From: Corallococcus terminator
Lineage (GTDB): Bacteria; Myxococcota; Myxococcia; Myxococcales; Myxococcaceae
Assembly: GCF_003611635.1 (NCBI RefSeq)
Contig: NZ_RAVZ01000007.1
Span: 1 to 64,000 of the forward strand
Reading direction: 5' to 3'
Length of the DNA stretch: 64,000 nucleotides
The position numbers were made by a program, and so were the translations under genes. The notes under the pieces were generated by a model that was given only the letters and a program-made list of their open reading frames with translations, was not told where the DNA came from and searched no databases. This document shows positions 13,743 through 24,887 of this stretch, in pieces; the stretch's first letter is position 1; each line of letters opens with the position of its first letter.

Positions 13743-14351
13743 TCAGGCCTTGGCGGGTTCGGAGGTGGGCTTCTCCTTGCGGACGAAGGCGTCCACCACG
13801 AGCATGCCCACGCCGATGCAGATGGCCGCGTCCGCGACATTGAACGACGGCCAGGCGGCCTTGTCGTACCAATGCGCTTCCAGGAAATCGATGACGAAGG
13901 CCCGGGCCACCCGGTCGACGTAGTTGCCCAGCGCGCCACCCAGCACCAGCGGCAGGCCCCACAGCGCCCACTTCTCCGCGGGGTCCGTCCCGGTGAGCTT
14001 CCGGAAGTAGAAGACGATGAGCAGCACCGCGCCCAGGCTCACCAGGTGGAAGAGCGGGCCGCGCACGTTGGGCGGCAGGTCGCGGAACATGCCCCACGCG
14101 GCGCCAGGGTTCTCCGCGTAGCGCAGGCGGAAGAAGTCATCGACCACCTCCACGTGCCTGCGAGGCTGGAAGTGCAGCCCGTAGCGGCCGGCCGCCTCCG
14201 CGGGCGTGTACATCGCGCCCAGGCGCTGCCCCAGCGTGGTGGCTCCGTCGAAGCGGGTGGTGAGGTCCCGCACGACCAGATACTTCGTCCACTGGTCCAG
14301 CACGATGACGCCCAGCGTGAGGGCGAGGAGGATGACGTATTTGCGCGGCAC
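13743..14351 (-). CDS. lspA: Signal peptidase II, first of two tandem copies
   Basis: Inner-membrane aspartyl protease that cleaves the signal peptide from diacylglyceryl-modified prolipoproteins. 202 residues, four hydrophobic segments. Conserved motifs: VLDQWTKYLVV, RYAENPGAAWGMF, and the two catalytic Asp regions GGALGNYVDRV and FNVADAAI. A periplasmic insert of about 35 residues after the first helix (GATTLGQRLGAMYTPAEAAG ...) makes it longer than the usual 160-170. The start is GTG. It lies 32 bases downstream of a second lspA, and 123 bases separate it from lgt. Confidence 0.94.
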   Translation of the reverse strand: MPRKYVILLALTLGVIVLDQWTKYLVVRDLTTRFDGATTLGQRLGAMYTPAEAAGRYGLHFQPRRHVEVVDDFFRLRYAENPGAAWGMFRDLPPNVRGPLFHLVSLGAVLLIVFYFRKLTGTDPAEKWALWGLPLVLGGALGNYVDRVARAFVIDFLEAHWYDKAAWPSFNVADAAICIGVGMLVVDAFVRKEKPTSEPAKA

Positions 14352-14383
14352 GGGGACGGCTTATACCAGCCCACCCCGGCCCG

Positions 14384-15019
14384 TCACGGCTGAGGGCTCT
14401 GGGGGGTGAGCGGCGAGGAGGTGGTGACGGGCTCCGGCCGGCGCGCCCACACGGAGTCCAGCAGCATCAGCGCCACGCCCACCACGATGGCCGCGTCCGC
14501 CACGTTGAACGTGGGCCAGCGCATGCCCGGCTGGTTGCGCCAGTGCCAGTCGATGAAGTCGATGACGTAGCCCCGGATGAGCCGGTCCACGAAGTTGCCC
14601 AGCGCGCCGCCAGTAATGAGCGCCAGCGCCAGCCGCACCGACTTCTGGGACGCGTCCGTGCGCCGGTACAGCACCAGGATGAACGTCAGCGCCGCCAGGC
14701 TCACCACGTGGAAGAACGCCTTGCGCGCCGTGTCCGGCAGGTTGGAGAACATGCCCCACGCCGCGCCCGGGTTCTCCACGTAGCGGAAGTGCCAGTAGTC
14801 CTCGATGAAGCGGTACGGCCGGGTGTTGCGCCGGAACTCGCCTTCCTTCGGAGGGTCGTTGTCCAGGTTCTGCTCGCTCAGGAAGCCGGACACGCGCGCC
14901 ATGCCTTCGCGGCCGTCCAATGCTTCCGTCAGCCGGGACACGGCCAGGTACTTGGTCACCTGATCCGCCGCGAGCACGGTGAGGACCACGACGAGGAGGA
15001 GGCGGAGGGAGGCTTTCAT
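14384..15019 (-). CDS. lspA: Signal peptidase II, second tandem copy
   Basis: 211-residue paralogue of the adjacent gene with all catalytic features: LAADQVTKYLAVSRL, RYVENPGAAWGMF, GGALGNFVDRLIRG and FNVADAAI. It has its own insert after helix 1 (REGMARVSGFLSEQNLDND ...), different in sequence from that of its neighbour, so the duplication is old. In Myxococcus xanthus four lspA genes are known, two of them tandem in the genome core; LspA is the target of the myxobacterial antibiotic TA (myxovirescin), and extra copies reduce sensitivity. That background fits this pair but is not shown here directly. Confidence 0.94.
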   Translation of the reverse strand: MKASLRLLLVVVLTVLAADQVTKYLAVSRLTEALDGREGMARVSGFLSEQNLDNDPPKEGEFRRNTRPYRFIEDYWHFRYVENPGAAWGMFSNLPDTARKAFFHVVSLAALTFILVLYRRTDASQKSVRLALALITGGALGNFVDRLIRGYVIDFIDWHWRNQPGMRWPTFNVADAAIVVGVALMLLDSVWARRPEPVTTSSPLTPQSPQP

Positions 15020-15586: not shown

Positions 15587-16924
15587 CTAGAAGTTGGGCG
15601 TGAGGAAGTCCTTCAACACGCCCATGTGCTGCATGTTGGAGGCGCCGCTGTCGCTGGACAGCGCCGGGTAGATCTCCGACAGCGGCGTGTAGACGCGGCT
15701 GTCCAGGACGAGCCCGTTGGCGAAGGAGCTGGCGCCAATCACGGTGGGCACGCGGTACTGGTACAGGTCGTTGTCCACGAGCACGTGGTCGTAGGGCTTG
15801 CTGCGGTTCGCGTTGGTGCCGTCCTTGTTGTTCTTGTCCACCGGGTGCGGCCCGACGGTCGTCACCACCTGCTTGAAGGTGGTGAGGCAGGACTCGGAGC
15901 GGCTGTCGGTGTTGAAGTCGCCGCCGATGGTCAGGTAGTCGGACTCCCGGACATTGTCCTTGATGAACTTCACCAGGTTGGTGGCCTCCGTGTTGCGGAC
16001 GCCGGAGCCGCTGGTGAGCAGGTGGACGCTGACGGCCCAGAGGTCGTGCGGCCCCGGGATGTCGATGCGCGCCCAGGCGAAGTCGCGGTTGGACACCTGC
16101 GTGTCCTTCCACTCACCGGACTCGATGATGGGGAAGCGGCTGATGATGCCGTTGGGGATCTGCGCGCCGGTCTCGCGGTAGTACGAGAAGCCCGGGCCGA
16201 AGGTCAGGTCGACCATCTCGCGGATCTCCGCCGCGGAGTTCGCCTTGTAGTTGAACTCCTGGATGAGCACGACGTCGGGCTTCACGCCCTGCATCAGCCG
16301 GATGCCGTGACCCTGGTCGTAGTCCTGGCCGTTACCGCTGGTGATGTTGGCCGCCATGATGCGGATCTTCGTGTAGCCACCATCCGTGTCGGAGCCACCG
16401 TCCGTGGTGCCCGCGTCGTCAGAGCCCGCGTCCGTGGTGCCCGCGTCACTCGTGGTGCCTGCATCACTCGTCGTGCCCGCGTCGACCGTCGTACCGGCAT
16501 CGACCGTCGTGCCCGCGTCGCTCGTCGTGCCCGCATCGACCGTGGTGCCCGCGTCGACCGTCGTACCGGCATCGACCGTCGTACCGGCATCGACCGTGGT
16601 GCCCGCGTCGGTCGTCGTGCCCGCGTCGGTCGCCGTGCCCGCATCGGTCGTCGTGCCCGCGTCGGTCGTCGTGCCCGCGTCATTCTCGGAGCCCGCATCG
16701 GCATCCGGGCCCGCGTCGATCGAACGACCGCCATCCTCCACGTCGCCAGCATCGACCGTGCTGCTGCCAGCATCCGTCCCGGTGCCCGCGTCGTTCCGGG
16801 TTCCGGCATCCGCCGAGGTTCCAGAGTCCGGAGGCGTGGTGGGCTCGGTACCCGGGCCGCAGGCGGTTGCCAGGGCCCCCATCGCCACGAGGGCGCGGAG
16901 AATCGGGGGGAGCTTCATGGACAT
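15587..16924 (-). CDS. Lipoprotein of the endonuclease/exonuclease/phosphatase family with repeat linker
   Basis: 445 residues. MSMKLPPILRALVAMGALATACG is a lipoprotein signal (lipobox ATAC). Residues about 24-150 are low-complexity, dominated by 6-residue TT(T/V/S)DAG units. The remaining ~290 residues form a DNase I-like fold: IRIMAANITSGNGQDYDQG, PDVVLIQEFNYKA (metal-binding Glu), WAVSVHLLTSGSG, YLTIGGDFNTDSRSESC (GDFN motif), and PYDHVLVDNDLY (catalytic Asp-His). It is probably a cell-surface nuclease or phosphodiesterase held away from the membrane by the repeat. Substrate unknown. An ATG two codons downstream (16918) is an alternative start. A near-consensus promoter lies upstream. Confidence 0.85.
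   Translation of the reverse strand: MSMKLPPILRALVAMGALATACGPGTEPTTPPDSGTSADAGTRNDAGTGTDAGSSTVDAGDVEDGGRSIDAGPDADAGSENDAGTTTDAGTTTDAGTATDAGTTTDAGTTVDAGTTVDAGTTVDAGTTVDAGTTSDAGTTVDAGTTVDAGTTSDAGTTSDAGTTDAGSDDAGTTDGGSDTDGGYTKIRIMAANITSGNGQDYDQGHGIRLMQGVKPDVVLIQEFNYKANSAAEIREMVDLTFGPGFSYYRETGAQIPNGIISRFPIIESGEWKDTQVSNRDFAWARIDIPGPHDLWAVSVHLLTSGSGVRNTEATNLVKFIKDNVRESDYLTIGGDFNTDSRSESCLTTFKQVVTTVGPHPVDKNNKDGTNANRSKPYDHVLVDNDLYQYRVPTVIGASSFANGLVLDSRVYTPLSEIYPALSSDSGASNMQHMGVLKDFLTPNF
16441..16682 (-). repeat. 18-bp tandem repeat encoding (TT[TVS]DAG)n linker
   Basis: About 13 units of 18 bases encode TT(T/V/S/A)DAG hexapeptides, flanked by looser SxDAG copies on both sides. Units differ mainly at the third residue (Val, Thr, Ser). 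The tract gives an extended acidic, threonine-rich linker between lipid anchor and enzyme domain. Being an exact multiple of three it can change length without breaking the frame. Confidence 0.9.
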
Positions 16925-16999
16925 GCGGGGACCTGAATCCTTGCTTCCGAGGGTGACGAGGGGCTGACCCGTCGGCTTCGGCACGCCGACTTGCGCGTG

Positions 17000-17192: not shown

Positions 17193-17954
17193 ATGTCACC
17201 ACGGCAGCTCACGGTGCGTTTCCACGGCGCACTGAACGACTTCCTCGCGCCGGAGCGCCGGAACGTGGCGTTCACGCACGCCCTGCAGGGCAGCCCTTCG
17301 GTGAAGGATCTCATCGAGTCGTTGGGGCCACCGCACCCGGAGGTGGCCGTGGTGCTGGTGGATGGCGACCCGGTGGGCTTCGAGCACCGCGCGGAAGCGG
17401 ACACGAGCCTCGTCGTCTACCCCGCACTCCAGGCGCCCCGGGTTCCACCGGAGTCACGCGTGGGACCGCCGCTCCCGGAGATGCCGCGCTTCGTGCTGGA
17501 CGTGGGACTGGGGCGGCTGTCGGGCTTCCTGCGGATGCTCGGCTTCGACACCCTGTGGCGCAACGACTTCGCGGATGATCATCTGGCGCGCCTGTCCCGT
17601 CAGGAGTCGCGCGTGCTGCTCACGCGGGACCTGGGCGTGCTCAAGCGTTCGGAGGTGGTGCACGGCTACTTCCCGCGCGCCACCGACCCCGCGCACCAAC
17701 TGGTGGAGGTGGTGCGCCGCTACGAACTGACGTCGCGCATGCGCCCCTTCAGCCGCTGCATGGCCTGCAACGCGCCGCTGACCACCGCCACGCCGGACGA
17801 GGTGCAGGGCCGCGTCCCCGAAGGCGTGGCCGGACGCCACTCCCACTTCCGCCAGTGTCCCGGCTGCCAGCGCGTCTTCTGGCCCGGCACCCACCACGAC
17901 CGCATGCAGGCCCTGGTGGACACACTGCGCCGGCTGGAAGCCGTCGGCACCTGA
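17193..17954 (+). CDS. Mut7-C RNAse-domain protein with N-terminal ubiquitin-like domain
   Basis: 253 residues, cytoplasmic. Residues about 5-85 form a beta-grasp, ubiquitin-like (Mut7-C ubiquitin) domain: LTVRFHGALNDFL, SVKDLIESLGPPHPEV, VLVDGDPVGFEHR. Residues about 95-250 are a Mut7-C domain, a predicted PIN-like RNase: RFVLDVGLGRLSGFLRMLGFDT, DDHLARLSRQESRVLLTRDL, then a zinc ribbon with CMACNAPL and CPGCQRVFW. The Asp residues of the first and second blocks are the likely metal ligands. The combination is a known architecture. Its RNA substrate is not established. Confidence 0.88.
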   Translation: MSPRQLTVRFHGALNDFLAPERRNVAFTHALQGSPSVKDLIESLGPPHPEVAVVLVDGDPVGFEHRAEADTSLVVYPALQAPRVPPESRVGPPLPEMPRFVLDVGLGRLSGFLRMLGFDTLWRNDFADDHLARLSRQESRVLLTRDLGVLKRSEVVHGYFPRATDPAHQLVEVVRRYELTSRMRPFSRCMACNAPLTTATPDEVQGRVPEGVAGRHSHFRQCPGCQRVFWPGTHHDRMQALVDTLRRLEAVGT

Positions 17955-17965
17955 GGTCGCGGGCT

Positions 17966-19108
17966 TTAGCGGGTCCGGGGGACCGTGGCCCACACCTTCG
18001 GGCCCCGGGGTTCGTTCTTCTCCAGCACCAGGTCGAAGGTGATCTCCACCGTGCGCGCGAGCCGGAGGAAGAACTCCCTGGCGAACGAATCGACCGCGAA
18101 GCCCAGGTCCCGCATGTCGAGCGTCACCGGAGCGCGTGAGACGATGCGCAGGCTCGTGCCCTCCAGCACCGTCACCACCGCATCCGCCGTCACCGGCAGC
18201 CGGATGCCGAGCGCACCGACACGCCCCCGGATGTTCACCGGGATGGCCGTGCCGAAAGGCACCGCGTCCAACTGGTAGCGGCCGTCGAGCGTGTCCACCG
18301 AGTCCAGGGTGAAGTCCACGGACTCGACGGTCTTGAAGAAGAACTTCCCCAGATTGAAGTCGCGGACCGGCTCGCCCGTGCGCACGGAGCGCGTCCTGGC
18401 GCTCACCTGCGCGGTGCAGGTGTCCAGCCGGAGCCACTCCTCGAACCGGATGGTCGCTTCCACCTCGTCCAGGAAGCCCACGAGCGCCTTCTCCTCCAGG
18501 TCGTTCGAGGACTGCTTGCGCACCCGGAAGGAGACCACCGAGCGCTGCGGCTCCGCCGGCCCCGGCGTCTCCCAGGTGAGCCGGGGGTCCGCGAGGATTG
18601 TCTTCTTGATGGCCTCCGCGTACTTCACGTACCCCGTGCAACGACAGACGTTCCCGGAGATGGCCTGACGGATGCGGTTGTCCAACTGGGCCACGGGGAT
18701 GGGCCCGCGGGCGAGCTGATCCATGAGCACGTCGGCCGCCATCAGGAAGCCAGGGGTGGAGAACCCGCACTGGAAGGAGTAGCACTCCAGGAACTCGCGC
18801 TGGAGCGGATGGAGTTCCCCGTCCGGTCCCGCCAGGCCTTCCACCGTCGTGAAGTGCAGCCCTTCGATGGAGTCCATGCGCGCGTAGCACGCCAGCATGG
18901 CCATCTTGGGACTGCCGGGCGCCTTCTGCGCCACGACCTTGCAGGCCCCGCACGAACCGATGCCGCAACTGAGCTTCGTGCCGGTGAGGTCGAGCTGTTC
19001 ATGCAGCACGTCGACGAGCAGGTCCTCCCCCGCCGCGACGACGGTCCTCGGGATGCCGTTGACGTGGAGGGTGTATTCGCGCTCGGTGCGCTTGGGAGTC
19101 TGGGTCAT
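17966..19108 (-). CDS. Molybdenum hydroxylase [2Fe-2S] subunit fused to a YceI-like domain
   Basis: 380 residues. N-terminal plant-type ferredoxin domain (CGIGSCGACKVV, then C in MAMLACYARM), followed by the helical [2Fe-2S]-binding domain (QCGFSTPGF, ISGNVCRCTGYVKYAEAIKK); together about 1-170. Residues about 185-375 are extra and resemble YceI, a lipocalin-like barrel: EEKALVGFLDEVEATIRF, VRDFNLGKFFFKTVESVDFTL, LPVTADAVVTVLEG. YceI proteins bind isoprenoids or amphiphiles. The Fe-S part passes electrons from the molybdenum subunit. Its ATG overlaps the stop of that subunit's gene (ATGA). I see no twin-arginine signal. The fusion is unusual for this subunit, which is normally 150-170 residues. 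Confidence 0.85.
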   Translation of the reverse strand: MTQTPKRTEREYTLHVNGIPRTVVAAGEDLLVDVLHEQLDLTGTKLSCGIGSCGACKVVAQKAPGSPKMAMLACYARMDSIEGLHFTTVEGLAGPDGELHPLQREFLECYSFQCGFSTPGFLMAADVLMDQLARGPIPVAQLDNRIRQAISGNVCRCTGYVKYAEAIKKTILADPRLTWETPGPAEPQRSVVSFRVRKQSSNDLEEKALVGFLDEVEATIRFEEWLRLDTCTAQVSARTRSVRTGEPVRDFNLGKFFFKTVESVDFTLDSVDTLDGRYQLDAVPFGTAIPVNIRGRVGALGIRLPVTADAVVTVLEGTSLRIVSRAPVTLDMRDLGFAVDSFAREFFLRLARTVEITFDLVLEKNEPRGPKVWATVPRTR

Positions 19109-21927
19109 GGCTTCAGTGCCTCCAGCACGCGCGCGGGGGTGAAGGGCAGGATGCTCAGGCGCACGCCCGTGGCATGGGCGACCGCGTTCGCGACGGCCGG
19201 CATCACCGTCGTCATCACGGCCTCGGCGATCCCCTTCTTCCGGATGGGAGGGCCGGACCTCAAAATCTGCGCCCCTTCCGGAAGCGTCACCAGCCGCAAC
19301 TGCACTCCCGAGGCAGGCATGTGCGTCGCCCGGGGGACCGGATAGCGGTGCAGGTTGAGCAGGCCGTCCACACCGACGGGGGCCGGCGGGACGCTTTCGA
19401 ACAGCGTCATCCCCAGCCCCATCGCGAAGCCCCCCTCCACCTGCCCTTCGAGGATCTTCTGGTGGTGGACCTCGCCCGCGTCGAGCAGGGTGACGGCGTC
19501 CACGACATCAATCACCCCGGAGCGGGTGTTCACCGTGACCGCGACGAGGTGCCCGGCCGAAGCGTAGACGCTCCGGATGTGGTGCTTCGCGTCGTTCGCC
19601 GCGCCGTCATAGGGCACATCCACCCGGGTGACGTGCTGGTAGCCCGCCACGTCCTCGGCATCGCCTCCGTGGAGGACGGCGAGCCCGTCGATGTAGCGCA
19701 GCCGCGTCGTGCCCCCCAGGGTGTACTCCGAACAGGCGTACGCGTTGCGGTAGTAGGTGTGCACGATGGCGCCGGTGCACAGCCCGTCCTCCTTCGCCCG
19801 GGCGTGGGCCCTGGACGCGAGCTCCTCCATGGGAATGGGGCAGCGGCCCGGAGCCACCAGCTTCCCGTCCTCCCAGTGGGCGGTCTCCGGGACGTCGCCC
19901 CAGATGTCCGCCGCGCACGGCTTCAAGCCGTGATCGAAGACGACCCGCGCGGCCTCCTCGACCGCGTGGATGTGGAAGAACGCCGTCACCGAAGCACTCA
20001 TCGTGTTGTCGAGCTTCGGCGTGTTCCTCGGCTGCCCCGGGGCGTAGGGGGCCTTGTTCAACCGGATGGTGTCGTGGTCGAAGCGGCCCAGCACGCCCAG
20101 GACGACCCGGGACGCCTCGCGGCCCAGCAGCGGTCGGGTGGCGATGGCGAGCGAGGTCTCGCTGCCCTGGCCCATCTCGATGGCGGTGGAGCGCACCGTC
20201 ACCTCGCCCATCGGACCGATGCTGACCTCGGCGAAGACCGCGTCCTCGCTGGTGCCTATCGCCTGCATCGCGCAGGCGAACCCGACGCCATACTTCACCA
20301 GCCCGTTGCCCCGGGCGGCGTACTCGGCCCGCTTCGCTTCCCGCCCGGTCCAGAGCGGCTCCTTCGCGGCGAGGGCGCAGATGCGCTCGGTGTCCAGGTG
20401 GTGCCGCAGCTCGAAGCCCGTCACGTCGACGTCCTTCGGCTTGAGCAGCTTTTCATGCCGGAAGGCGATGGGATCCGCGCCGACCGCGCTCGCGACCTCG
20501 TCGATCATGGACTCGATGGCGAAGGCCGCCTGCGGAATCCCGAAGCCGCGCATGGAGCCGGAGGGAGCGCCGTCCGTGCTGATGCCGTAACCGCTGATGG
20601 CGTTGTGCGTGAAGCGGTACGGCCCGGCGGCATGGAGGGCGCACAACTGCACGACGGGCTTGGTGAGGTTCAGCACGCCGCCGCCATCCATGGAGATGGT
20701 CGAGTCGAGCGAGTGGAGGACGTAGTCCTCGGGGCCCTTGGGTGGGGGGCCCTGGGGGTCCCTGGGGCCATAGGCCAGCACGTTCTGGAGCACGGCGGCG
20801 TGCCGCTTGATGCCGCAGAGGAACTGCTCGTAGCGGTCGAAGGCCAGGCGCACGGGCCCGTCGCAGAAGAAGGCCGCCAGGGCCAGATACATCGGGAAGG
20901 TGGAGAGGTCCCGTCCCCCGAAGCCGCCGCCAATCGGATAGGTCGTCAGCTCGACCCTGGGGGACTCCGCCTCGGGCCACAGGGCGGTGAGCGTCTCCAC
21001 GCCCTCCCGGTCCTTGCGCGGAGACTGCGTCCCCGCCGCGACGCGCAGGACCTGCTTGCCTTCAGCATCCCGGGTGAGAAAGGCGAGGCCCGTCTCCAGC
21101 TCCATGAACATCGGATCGATGCTCTGGCTGAAGAAGGTCCGGCGCAACACGGTCATCCCCTCCTCGGAGACGGACCTGCGGATGGCTTCGCGTGCCTTGT
21201 TCGCCTGGAGGTTGATGGCCCGCTTCGCGGGGTCCACGTCCGGCCCCAGCGCGTCGGGGTCATGGTCCTTGTGGCCCTGGGCGGAGAACGCGTGGTCCTT
21301 CACCTGGCTGCGGATGAAGTGGGTGGCGCCGTAGATGGCCTCTTCCTTGGAGACCCTCGCGCCCAGCAACGGATTGACGAGCCGCTGGATGTCCTGCTGC
21401 CACTCCACCCGTGAGCTGGCATCGAAGCGCAGCAGGGGAGGACCTTCATGTCGGCTCGGCTCCCGGTTCCAGGTGGCGAACTTCCGCAGGTCGCGGCTCT
21501 TGCGGAACAGGAGGATGGCCACGGGCTGACCGATGTGGTCCGCGTAGCCGCCAGGCGGGGTCAGCCAGTACAGCCCGAAGAAATCCGGCACCACGCTCGT
21601 GTCATCCAGCGCGAGCCCCTGGGCCGGGTGCACGACCGTCTGGGCCCTGCTCCCACCGGGGAGCTTCTGCCTGTACGGCGCCGTGAACCCGCGCGCGTGG
21701 AGGTCCACGGCCTGGACGATGTCTGGCGGCTCAATCCCCAGCAGCGCGAAGACCTCCACCAGCCGCGCGTCATCCAGGCCCAGATACTTGCGGTCCGCGG
21801 AGGTGACGCGAAGCAGGTAGGCGTGACGGCACGCCCCCTCCCAGCCCAGGTCCCGCGTGTTGAGGTCGCGTCCGTAGACCTTCTTGCCGCGGACCTTGTC
21901 TTCACGGTCACCGAGGAATGGAGGCAT
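19105..21927 (-). CDS. Molybdenum hydroxylase large subunit (xanthine dehydrogenase/aldehyde oxidase family)
   Basis: 940 residues. Molybdopterin-binding subunit that hydroxylates a heteroaromatic or aldehyde substrate using water. Motifs: TTYPIGGGFGGRD (Moco site 1; Arg replaces the common Lys), GSMRGFGIPQAAFAIE, the VRSTAIEMGQGSETSL segment (GQG), and near the C-terminus RKKGIAEAVMTTVMPAVANA, where the Glu of KGxxE is the expected catalytic base. Several inserts (about 90-230) set it apart from typical 700-780-residue enzymes. No FAD subunit is adjacent, so electrons probably go to a carrier other than NAD. Transcribed before, and coupled to, the Fe-S subunit. Substrate unknown. Confidence 0.88.
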   Translation of the reverse strand: MPPFLGDREDKVRGKKVYGRDLNTRDLGWEGACRHAYLLRVTSADRKYLGLDDARLVEVFALLGIEPPDIVQAVDLHARGFTAPYRQKLPGGSRAQTVVHPAQGLALDDTSVVPDFFGLYWLTPPGGYADHIGQPVAILLFRKSRDLRKFATWNREPSRHEGPPLLRFDASSRVEWQQDIQRLVNPLLGARVSKEEAIYGATHFIRSQVKDHAFSAQGHKDHDPDALGPDVDPAKRAINLQANKAREAIRRSVSEEGMTVLRRTFFSQSIDPMFMELETGLAFLTRDAEGKQVLRVAAGTQSPRKDREGVETLTALWPEAESPRVELTTYPIGGGFGGRDLSTFPMYLALAAFFCDGPVRLAFDRYEQFLCGIKRHAAVLQNVLAYGPRDPQGPPPKGPEDYVLHSLDSTISMDGGGVLNLTKPVVQLCALHAAGPYRFTHNAISGYGISTDGAPSGSMRGFGIPQAAFAIESMIDEVASAVGADPIAFRHEKLLKPKDVDVTGFELRHHLDTERICALAAKEPLWTGREAKRAEYAARGNGLVKYGVGFACAMQAIGTSEDAVFAEVSIGPMGEVTVRSTAIEMGQGSETSLAIATRPLLGREASRVVLGVLGRFDHDTIRLNKAPYAPGQPRNTPKLDNTMSASVTAFFHIHAVEEAARVVFDHGLKPCAADIWGDVPETAHWEDGKLVAPGRCPIPMEELASRAHARAKEDGLCTGAIVHTYYRNAYACSEYTLGGTTRLRYIDGLAVLHGGDAEDVAGYQHVTRVDVPYDGAANDAKHHIRSVYASAGHLVAVTVNTRSGVIDVVDAVTLLDAGEVHHQKILEGQVEGGFAMGLGMTLFESVPPAPVGVDGLLNLHRYPVPRATHMPASGVQLRLVTLPEGAQILRSGPPIRKKGIAEAVMTTVMPAVANAVAHATGVRLSILPFTPARVLEALKP

Positions 21928-21992: not shown

Positions 21993-24887
21993 TCAGGACA
22001 ACGCCTCGCGACATTTGGGGCAGACCTCGTCGCCCTGCCCCACCGCTTCCGAATACACCCAGCAGCGCGGGCACTTCGTCCCCTTCGCCGGCAACACCTC
22101 CACGGACAGGGACGCGCCGTCGCCAAACGCCTGCGACACCTCCAGCGCCGTCGCCGCGTCGGAGGCCGTGTCCGCCCATTCCACCTGGCTCACGATGAAC
22201 AGCCCGGGCAGCTCCGCCAGATGCGCCTGGAGCAAGGCCTTCACCGCACCGTCAGCCGACAGCACCACGCGCGCCTCCAGGGACGCGCCAATGCGCTTGT
22301 CCCGCCGCGCCACCTCCAGCACGCCCTGCACCGCGCCGCGCACCGCGAAGAGCTTCGCGTACCGCTCCGCGATGCCCGGCGCCATCGCGCCCTTCGGCTC
22401 CGGGAAGCCCGCCAGGAACACGCTCTCGGTGTGTTCGCCCGGCAGGTGCTGCCACGCCTCTTCCGCCGTGAAGCTCATCACCGGCGCGAGCAGCGGCAGC
22501 AGCACGGTGACGACCTCGTGCAGCACCGTCTGCGCCCCCCGGCGCGCGGGCCCGTCCGCCTTCGCCGTGTAGAGCCGATCCTTCAGGATGTCGAAGTACA
22601 CGGCGGACAGGTCATTGGCGCAGAAGTCCACCACCGTCGCGTAGACGAGGTGGAACTCATAGTCCTCGTACGCCTGCCGCACCCGGGACACCACCTGCGA
22701 CAGCCGTCCGCGCGCCCACTGGTCCAGCGGCGACAGCGCCTCCGCCGGCACCGCGTCCTTCGCCGGGTCGAAGTCGTGCAGGTTGCCCAGCGCGTAGCGC
22801 AAGGTGTTGCGGATCTTCCGGTAGCCCTCCGACAGCCCCTTGAGGATGGCGTCCGACAGGCGCACGTCGTTGCGGTAGTCGCTGGCCGCCACCCACAGCC
22901 GCAGCACCTCAGCTCCGTATTGCTGGATGACCTTCTCCGGCGCCACCGTGTTGCCCCGGCTCTTGGACATCTTCTCGCCGTGGCCATCCACCACGAAGCC
23001 GTGCGTGAGGCACGCCTTGTAGGGCGCCACGTCGCGCGCGCCCACCGACACCAGCAGCGAGGAATGGAACCAGCCCCGGTGCTGGTCGCTCCCTTCCAGG
23101 AACAGGTCCGCCGGCACACGCTGCCGCTTCGCCAGCACCGCGGAGGCCATGCACGCCGAGTCGAACCACACGTCCAGGATGTCCGTCTCGCGGTGGAACT
23201 CACCCTTGCCGCAGCGCGGACACCGGAAGTCCTCCCCGAGGAAGTCCTTCACCGGCGTGCGGTACCACACGCCCGCGCCTTCCTTCTCCACCGCCGCCGC
23301 CACGCGCTCCATCACCTCTGGAGACACCACCGCGTCGTCGCACCCGTCGCAGTACGCGATGGGGATGGGCACGCCCCAGCTTCGCTGCCGGCTGATGCAC
23401 CAGTCCGGACGGCCCTCCAGCATGCCCCGGATGCGCGACTGGCCCCACGACGGCACCCAGCGCACCTGGTCCACCTGCTCCAGCACCGCCTCACGGAACG
23501 TCTGCGCGCCGTGGAAGGCCGCGTCCATGGGGATGAACCACTGGTAGGTGGCGCTCTGGATGACGGGCTGGTGGCAGCGCCAGCAGTGCGGATAGCTGTG
23601 CGTGAGGGTGTCTGATTTGTCATTGAGCAGCGCGCCCCGCTGCACCAGCAGGTCCAACACGACAGGGTTGGCCTCGAAGACGCGCCGGCCCGCCAGCACC
23701 TCGCCCACCGTGTCGTCGTAGCGGCCGTCCGCGCGCACCGGGTTGTAGATGTCCAGCCCGTACGCGAGCCCCACCTCGTAGTCCTCCTGCCCGTGGCCCG
23801 GCGCCGTGTGCACCAGCCCCGTGCCCGCATCCAGGGTGACGTGCCCGCCCAGCACCACGCGCCCCTGCCGCTCCAGGAACGGGTGTTGATACGTCACGTG
23901 CTCCAGGTCCTCGCCCGTCGCGTACGCGAGGATGCGCGAGGGGTCCACCAGCGCCGGGGACGACACCTCTCCGGTGGGAAGCTGCACGTGCTTCACCGCC
24001 AGCTCGTCCGCCTTCACCTCCGCCAGCACCTTGGCGAGCAGGTCCTTGGCCACGCACAGGACGCGGTCCTCCAGCCGGTAGAAGACGTATTCGAACGTGG
24101 GGTTCACCGCGATGGCCAGGTTCGCCGGCAGCGTCCAGGGTGTGGTGGTCCAGATGACGAAGGACACGCGCTGGCCGCGCAACTGCGGCAGCTTCTCACC
24201 CAGCGAGGCCCCCGCGTCGAAGGCCACGTACACGGACGGCGAGGTGTGCTCCGCGTACTCCACCTCCGCCTCGGCGAGCGCCGTCTGGTCCTGGAGGCAC
24301 CACGCCACCGGCTTCTTGCGGCGGTACAGCATGCCCCGGCGCGCGAACGTGGCCAGCTCGCGCAGCTCCTGCGCCTCGTAGGTGAAGTCGAGCGTCTTGT
24401 AGGGCGCGTCCCACGTGCCGAAGACGCCCAGCCGCTGGAACTCCGCCTTCTGGATGTCCACGAACTCCAGCGCGTATTCGCGGCAGCGCTCCAGCAGCGC
24501 GTCGCGCGACAGCGTGCGCTTGTCGAGCTTCTGTTCCTTCAGCCGCTTCTCCACCGCCTGCTCGATGGGGAGGCCGTGCGTGTCCCAGCCGGGGATGAAG
24601 TCACACGGGCGTCCGGAGAGGTTGCGGTACTTCACCACGATGTCCTTCAGCACCTTGTTGAGCGCGTGCCCGGCGTGCAGGTGGCCGTTGGCGTACGGGG
24701 GCCCGTCCGCCAGCACGAAGGGCTCCCGGCCGGCGTTCTTCTCCAGCAGCTTCTTCCACACCCCGCGCTCCGCCCACCACGCCAGGAGGCGCGGTTCGAG
24801 CTGCGACAGGTTCCCCTTCATGGGGAACTCCGTGCGCGGCAGGTGGACGGTGGCGTCGAGGTCCTTGCGGGAGGGGGCGTCGCTCAT
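21993..24887 (-). CDS. ileS: Isoleucine-tRNA ligase
   Basis: 964-residue class I aminoacyl-tRNA synthetase charging tRNA-Ile, with an editing domain. Signature PYANGHLHAGHALN (HIGH box) near residue 65, FVIWTTTPWTLPANLAI of the CP1 editing domain, GWFHSSLL, and GEKMSKSRGNTV (KMSKS). The C-terminal zinc ribbon CPRCWVYSE ... CPKCREAL is intact. It starts MSDAPSRKDLDATVHLPRTE, a usual bacterial type 1 N-terminus. It stands alone between the molybdenum hydroxylase genes (65-base gap) and a small secreted protein. Confidence 0.98.
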   Translation of the reverse strand: MSDAPSRKDLDATVHLPRTEFPMKGNLSQLEPRLLAWWAERGVWKKLLEKNAGREPFVLADGPPYANGHLHAGHALNKVLKDIVVKYRNLSGRPCDFIPGWDTHGLPIEQAVEKRLKEQKLDKRTLSRDALLERCREYALEFVDIQKAEFQRLGVFGTWDAPYKTLDFTYEAQELRELATFARRGMLYRRKKPVAWCLQDQTALAEAEVEYAEHTSPSVYVAFDAGASLGEKLPQLRGQRVSFVIWTTTPWTLPANLAIAVNPTFEYVFYRLEDRVLCVAKDLLAKVLAEVKADELAVKHVQLPTGEVSSPALVDPSRILAYATGEDLEHVTYQHPFLERQGRVVLGGHVTLDAGTGLVHTAPGHGQEDYEVGLAYGLDIYNPVRADGRYDDTVGEVLAGRRVFEANPVVLDLLVQRGALLNDKSDTLTHSYPHCWRCHQPVIQSATYQWFIPMDAAFHGAQTFREAVLEQVDQVRWVPSWGQSRIRGMLEGRPDWCISRQRSWGVPIPIAYCDGCDDAVVSPEVMERVAAAVEKEGAGVWYRTPVKDFLGEDFRCPRCGKGEFHRETDILDVWFDSACMASAVLAKRQRVPADLFLEGSDQHRGWFHSSLLVSVGARDVAPYKACLTHGFVVDGHGEKMSKSRGNTVAPEKVIQQYGAEVLRLWVAASDYRNDVRLSDAILKGLSEGYRKIRNTLRYALGNLHDFDPAKDAVPAEALSPLDQWARGRLSQVVSRVRQAYEDYEFHLVYATVVDFCANDLSAVYFDILKDRLYTAKADGPARRGAQTVLHEVVTVLLPLLAPVMSFTAEEAWQHLPGEHTESVFLAGFPEPKGAMAPGIAERYAKLFAVRGAVQGVLEVARRDKRIGASLEARVVLSADGAVKALLQAHLAELPGLFIVSQVEWADTASDAATALEVSQAFGDGASLSVEVLPAKGTKCPRCWVYSEAVGQGDEVCPKCREALS

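Follow-up and report, generated by a model that had tools for sequence, protein, structure and literature searches.

In xanthine oxidoreductase, the chain of redox centers runs from Mo to Fe/S I, then to Fe/S II and finally to FAD, as described in passages of PMC3509653 and also of PMC3767608. The Fe/S I ligands listed in the former source include Cys115 of the rat enzyme, the counterpart of human Cys116, which was mutated to serine to assign the cluster (passages of PMC3509653). The small subunits of the xanthine oxidase superfamily (e.g., the gamma subunit of 4-hydroxybenzoyl-CoA reductase, the aldehyde oxidase 5y6q small subunit and the CO dehydrogenase small chain) typically comprise about 160-170 aa, contain four Fe/S I cysteines and usually function with an FAD subunit or an external acceptor. 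The YceI lipocalins are a distinct family. Published structures of these proteins often hold isoprenoids, ubiquinone-8 among them; the ligands are generally lipophilic and not always redox active (passages of PMC9113575). Cbp2D combines YceI domains with c-type cytochromes (passages of PMC10154616 and PMC8981238).

The gene at positions 17966..19108 (minus strand) of the window, i.e., the 64,000-nucleotide stretch of Corallococcus terminator DNA analyzed here, brings these two families together: in its product, a [2Fe-2S] Mo-hydroxylase subunit is joined to a YceI lipocalin-type barrel. The fusions share with the small subunits of the xanthine oxidase superfamily the Fer2 and Fer2_2 domains, the Fe/S II ligands and the Mo partner, but differ from them in length, in the Fe/S I ligand set and in the presence of the barrel. 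The small-subunit and YceI families themselves are known; a search of a library of open-access papers found no description of a YceI fusion on a Mo-hydroxylase Fe-S subunit. The barrel on the tail of the protein, together with a serine in place of a cluster cysteine in some Corallococcus, points to an unusual electron exit.

A fused small subunit with a YceI-type barrel

The fused protein (380 aa from an ATG start, delineated by the open reading frame, Pfam and structure matches) begins with a Fer2 domain (residues 15-77, positions 18878..19066, minus strand; 32.0 bits against a Pfam cut-off of 21) that corresponds to Fe/S II; the four ligands of this cluster, C48, C53, C56 and C74, are all present and are invariant among the fusions from four genomes. 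It is followed by a Fer2_2 domain (residues 88-168, positions 18605..18847, minus strand; 82.9 bits, cut-off 30.3) that corresponds to Fe/S I, with C114, S117, C155 and C157 at the ligand positions. Both domains are contained in the first 168 residues. The protein is indeed more than twice the usual length of a Mo-hydroxylase Fe-S subunit, as the initial annotation claimed. The PDB matches of the 380-aa protein are small subunits of Mo hydroxylases or their counterparts in fused enzymes, and all of these lie inside residues 5-180. The YceI-type lipocalin barrel, delineated by profiles, alignment and structure models, spans about residues 186-361 (positions 18026..18553, minus strand).

The assignment of the C-terminal region to the YceI family, initially proposed from a series of short motifs, each of which is found in the translation, holds at the level of the fold. 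The Pfam YceI profile (PF04264) matches the C-terminal segment of the fusions from three sister genomes with 37.7, 30.9 and 30.1 bits (gathering cut-off 23.7) but does not match the window copy, even when E values as high as 10 are allowed. A search of PDB sequences with a profile of the fused domain yields nothing significant, with 3q34 appearing only at E 0.48, behind chance matches, and hhalign comparison of this domain to 29 YceI proteins gives E 5.3e-4 with a probability of only 30.5%, so that the sequence evidence alone is modest. Structure prediction is more informative: when residues 180-380 are modeled with AlphaFold2 (AF2) from an alignment that includes 29 Myxococcota YceI proteins, the result is a lipocalin-type barrel with mean pLDDT 83 and pTM 0.78. 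All 21 Foldseek matches (chains) of this model at E<=0.001 are YceI or polyisoprenoid-binding entries, and VIA-align superimposes the model on 3q34 with Z 17.5 (164 aligned residues, 2.5 A), on E. coli YceI with Z 15.7 and on TT1927b with Z 15.3, the next unrelated barrels scoring 9.5. A full-length model obtained from the fusion family alone, without YceI sequences, is poor (pLDDT 47.5), but YceI proteins (3q34 at E 8.4e-8) still head its structure matches, and small subunits of Mo hydroxylases appear among the matches that follow. Thus, the fold assignment does not depend on the YceI proteins in the alignment. The fusions retain four of the five residues that are invariant among the 29 Myxococcota YceI proteins (G, R, D, H, G), including the RD pair and the glycines, whereas the histidine of the RDxHL motif is replaced by asparagine.

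The second peculiarity of the fused protein is Ser117 (codon TCC, positions 18758..18760, minus strand). In all five alignments with PDB small subunits shown, this residue takes the place of the second cysteine of the Fe/S I CxxC motif, and, judging from the shared motif, it appears to match human Cys116 and rat Cys115 exactly. Serine occupies this position in all four fusion genomes, so that the fusions possess seven cysteine ligands instead of the eight of two [2Fe-2S] clusters. A search of 195 Myxococcota genomes at the DNA level for the pattern QCG[FY]S with G two residues on, limited to the QCG[FY] motif and to serine codons of the non-AGY type, gives 8 matches. Only four of these, all from the fusions, lie in a Fer2_2 context; within the reach of this pattern, the serine variant was not found in a true small subunit of any other of these genomes. 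The matches in G028, G030, G099 and G109 were dropped as short frames without Fer2_2 context. The cysteine form of the pattern occurs in 156 of the 195 genomes, as counted from pattern matches alone, irrespective of context.

The gene pair, its distribution and its relatives

The molybdopterin-binding large subunit (940 aa, positions 19105..21927, minus strand, identified from the open reading frame and Pfam) overlaps the start of the small-subunit gene by 4 bases (ATGA), and the Mo subunit is adjacent to the fused gene in all four genomes. It contains the MoCoBD_1 and MoCoBD_2 domains and retains the Mo-cofactor motifs, MGQG being found in the large subunits of the fusions and of Mycolicibacterium arabiense. 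Glu902 (window numbering), which we take to be the catalytic Glu of the superfamily, is kept in all 25 aligned large subunits of the clade. The best NCBIfam equivalog is pucD, with 189 bits against the 784 required, so that the large subunit has no close equivalog. As stated in the initial annotation, an FAD subunit is missing: there is no match to PF00941 (FAD_binding_5) on the contig, and the 2 matches in the genome are both on other contigs.

The fusion is rare. An in-frame search detects the fused domain in 4 of the 16 Corallococcus genomes and nothing convincing in the other 179 Myxococcota genomes, where a single marginal match (G194, E 0.0019, 60 positions) is taken as chance; L008, L012 and G023 are one genome and were counted once. 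No relative of the domain was found in the plasmid collection or in viral contigs, and a scan of 84,980 genomes, which reaches close relatives only, returned only C. praedator. In the window, ileS (positions 21993..24887, minus strand) is located directly upstream of the two-gene module, with a 65-base gap, and the insertion site is flanked on the other side by the gene of a Ub-Mut7C/Mut7-C protein (positions 17193..17954, plus strand), which is present in all 16 Corallococcus genomes. The module lies between these two genes in G000, G023 and G025, whereas in G018, where the small subunit is 73% identical, it is found elsewhere, between genes for a NosD-like protein and a VIT/vWA protein. The same neighbors without the module are found in G018, G026, G027, G028 and G029, the gap between them being longer in G028 (about 0.6 kb) and G029 (about 2.6 kb). 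In a one-gene tree of Mut7-C, G027, with its intact ileS-Mut7-C junction, groups with G000 inside the clade of three carriers (84/87), so that, as far as a single gene can tell, loss of the module in G027 is likelier than repeated gain. Given that the pair is kept together at two sites and is missing at intact ileS-Mut7-C junctions, the Mo subunit and the fused small subunit appear to come and go together in evolution. The dN/dS ratio ranges from 0.10 to 0.23 in the Fe-S part, from 0.20 to 0.41 in the YceI part and from 0.23 to 0.37 in the large subunit, indicating that the fused small subunit is under purifying selection. Downstream of the insertion site, the window also contains two tandem lspA genes, both scoring over TIGR00077, followed by an lgt-like gene (positions 13743-15019); positions 15587-16936 encode an Exo_endo_phos family protein with a long N-terminal stretch of DAGTT(V/T)DAGT repeats.

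The nearest relatives of the large subunit are found at 19 plasmid loci (29-35% identity; 29-34% across the full length by BLAST) and in two Myxococcota genomes, G005 and G007 (41-42% over parts of the sequence). The clade sample consists of 25 loci, namely, 24 examined (21 relatives and 3 fetched fusion loci) plus the window, and several of the plasmid loci are near-duplicates. In 20 of the 25 loci, the small subunit is short and ends 25-40 residues after the CxCxGY motif, compared with 226-227 in the YceI fusions and 435 in M. arabiense. A Tat-like motif is present in all 20 unfused loci: a script detected it in 18, and in the two near-identical Methylocella loci it appears only if the gene begins further upstream, as read for one of the two; the motif was identified by pattern, not by a signal-peptide predictor, and B. 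multivorans gives only RRYIV. A CxxCH protein, i.e., a c-type cytochrome, is encoded just downstream in 18 of the 20. Neither a Tat-like motif nor a CxxCH heme protein is found in the five fused loci (the four YceI fusions, including the window, and M. arabiense). In an unrooted tree of large subunits, which includes 18 of the 24 fetched relative loci and the window, with near-duplicates left out, the four YceI fusions and M. arabiense are on one side (100/99, with a long-branch warning).

Other loci of the clade show further arrangements. On the M. arabiense plasmid pJCM18538 (L037:8571-10328), Fer2 and Fer2_2 are fused to a PF12902 ferritin-like domain, and the Mo subunit lacks a Tat-like motif; the plasmid collection contains no other full-length copy of this protein. 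In Methylocella tundrae (L042:1588-4758), a large multicopper oxidase gene is directly upstream of the Mo hydroxylase pair, with no cytochrome downstream, and may represent another acceptor type in the clade. Four Methylobacterium plasmid loci (L139, L140, L141 and L148) contain an operon of the Mo hydroxylase, the 2Fe-2S subunit and the cytochrome. The genes beside it, which encode an 8-oxoguanine deaminase and a nucleobase:cation symporter, hint that this branch may act on a purine.

A possible electron exit at the barrel

The initial annotation suggested that the domain could bind the substrate or a quinone that accepts electrons directly, and binding of such a quinone is consistent with the results; the serine at Fe/S I, the loss of the Tat signal and the parallel ferritin-like fusion are additions to that annotation. 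The fused pair can be tentatively interpreted, with a probability of about 0.4, as a cytosolic, flavin-free, two-subunit Mo hydroxylase of the xanthine oxidase superfamily, from which electrons leave through the serine-modified Fe/S I and Fe/S II to a lipophilic redox ligand at the barrel. Under this scheme, the complex would stay in the cytosol, the substrate would be hydroxylated at Mo, and electrons would pass from Mo to Fe/S I and on to Fe/S II, to exit via a ligand held in or delivered by the barrel, which would replace the c-type cytochrome outlet of the periplasmic relatives. Myxobacteria use menaquinone, and this would then be the most likely ligand. Counted in favor of such an outlet are the YceI fold in two models, the fusion and the adjacency of the Mo subunit at two unrelated sites, purifying selection, the conserved Glu902 column, the lack of an FAD subunit on the contig, and the presence of Tat motifs and cytochromes in the unfused relatives but not in the fused loci, along with the ubiquinone-8 seen in YceI structures and the combination of YceI with a cytochrome in Cbp2D, as given in passages of PMC9113575, PMC10154616 and PMC8981238. 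Several observations count against it: the invariant YceI histidine is changed to asparagine, lipids without redox activity are ligands of YceI proteins as well, the serine at Fe/S I could impair the cluster, and the cytochrome/Tat contrast, being confined to a single split in the tree, is one evolutionary contrast, not five. Furthermore, most of the YceI proteins examined to date are located in the periplasm or secreted, whereas no export signal is seen in the fused proteins.

The main rival explanation, possible but ranked below a quinone outlet, is that the barrel carries a substrate or product: a lipophilic compound (isoprenoid, fatty amide or polyketide-like) would be presented to the Mo site, and the electrons would be taken up by something soluble, such as ferredoxin, O2 or an unlinked partner. 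The ligands of YceI proteins are compatible with this role, not always being redox active (passages of PMC9113575), and the other C-terminal fusion in the clade brings in the ferritin-like PF12902 domain, so that an attached domain does not have to accept electrons; the distance of the Mo subunit from any equivalog also leaves a wide choice of substrates. However, a carrier role explains neither the joint loss of Tat and cytochrome with the gain of the domain nor the changed ligand set of Fe/S I.

A degraded Fe/S I is rather improbable. In this scenario, Ser117 would fail to sustain a normal [2Fe-2S] cluster, and electrons would travel over long range slowly or not at all; the complex would then work differently (e.g., through internal redox chemistry involving a bound ligand) or would serve solely for binding. 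The matching residue of rat xanthine oxidoreductase, an Fe/S I ligand mutated to serine (passages of PMC3509653), agrees with this possibility. The strong purifying selection on the Fe-S part, the invariance of the remaining seven cluster ligands, and the intact catalytic Glu and cofactor motifs of the large subunit argue against it. In addition, Cys-to-Ser changes in [2Fe-2S] proteins often retain the cluster. The chance that two adjacent genes were merged by an assembly or annotation error is negligible: no supporting point was found, the unbroken frame of 378-380 aa is common to four separate assemblies at two loci, and the other three fused proteins are 73 to 94% identical to that of the window.

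If electrons do exit to a quinone at the barrel, Mo would be connected to quinone by a soluble route that involves neither flavin nor cytochrome. A Mo hydroxylase could then do without both by bringing along a lipophilic acceptor of its own, and the YceI lipocalins, the role of which is debated, would gain a defined redox partner within one polypeptide. The Fe/S I serine mirrors in nature the laboratory mutation made in rat xanthine oxidoreductase and offers a direct test of how cluster ligands set electron flow. The full combination, in which a Mo hydroxylase with a three-Cys-one-Ser Fe/S I cluster would have as its terminal acceptor a menaquinone inside the lipocalin barrel that extends its Fe-S subunit, as one case of a modular acceptor swap (cytochrome, YceI, ferritin-like) in one clade, seems unlikely to hold in every part.

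Comparison with known systems

The operons of proteobacterial plasmids and of G005 and G007, which encode a Tat-exported Mo hydroxylase, a 2Fe-2S subunit and a c-type cytochrome, have the same order of large and small subunit genes as the fusions. Unlike the fusions, these systems are periplasmic by their Tat-like signal and have a short small subunit with cysteine at Fe/S I and, in 18 of 20 cases, a CxxCH protein downstream. The M. arabiense plasmid locus resembles the YceI fusions in lacking both the Tat-like motif and the downstream cytochrome and in bearing a C-terminal domain on the Fe-S subunit, but this domain is ferritin-like instead of YceI, and the cysteine at Fe/S I is kept. The barrel fold is shared with the YceI/BcnA/X158 lipocalins, including Cbp2D with its YceI and c-type cytochrome domains; these proteins, however, are mostly exported and are not joined to a molybdenum enzyme, and the fusions have asparagine where the lipocalins have an invariant histidine. 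The lipocalins of the Cbp2D type set a precedent: a quinone-binding YceI module can form part of a redox protein.
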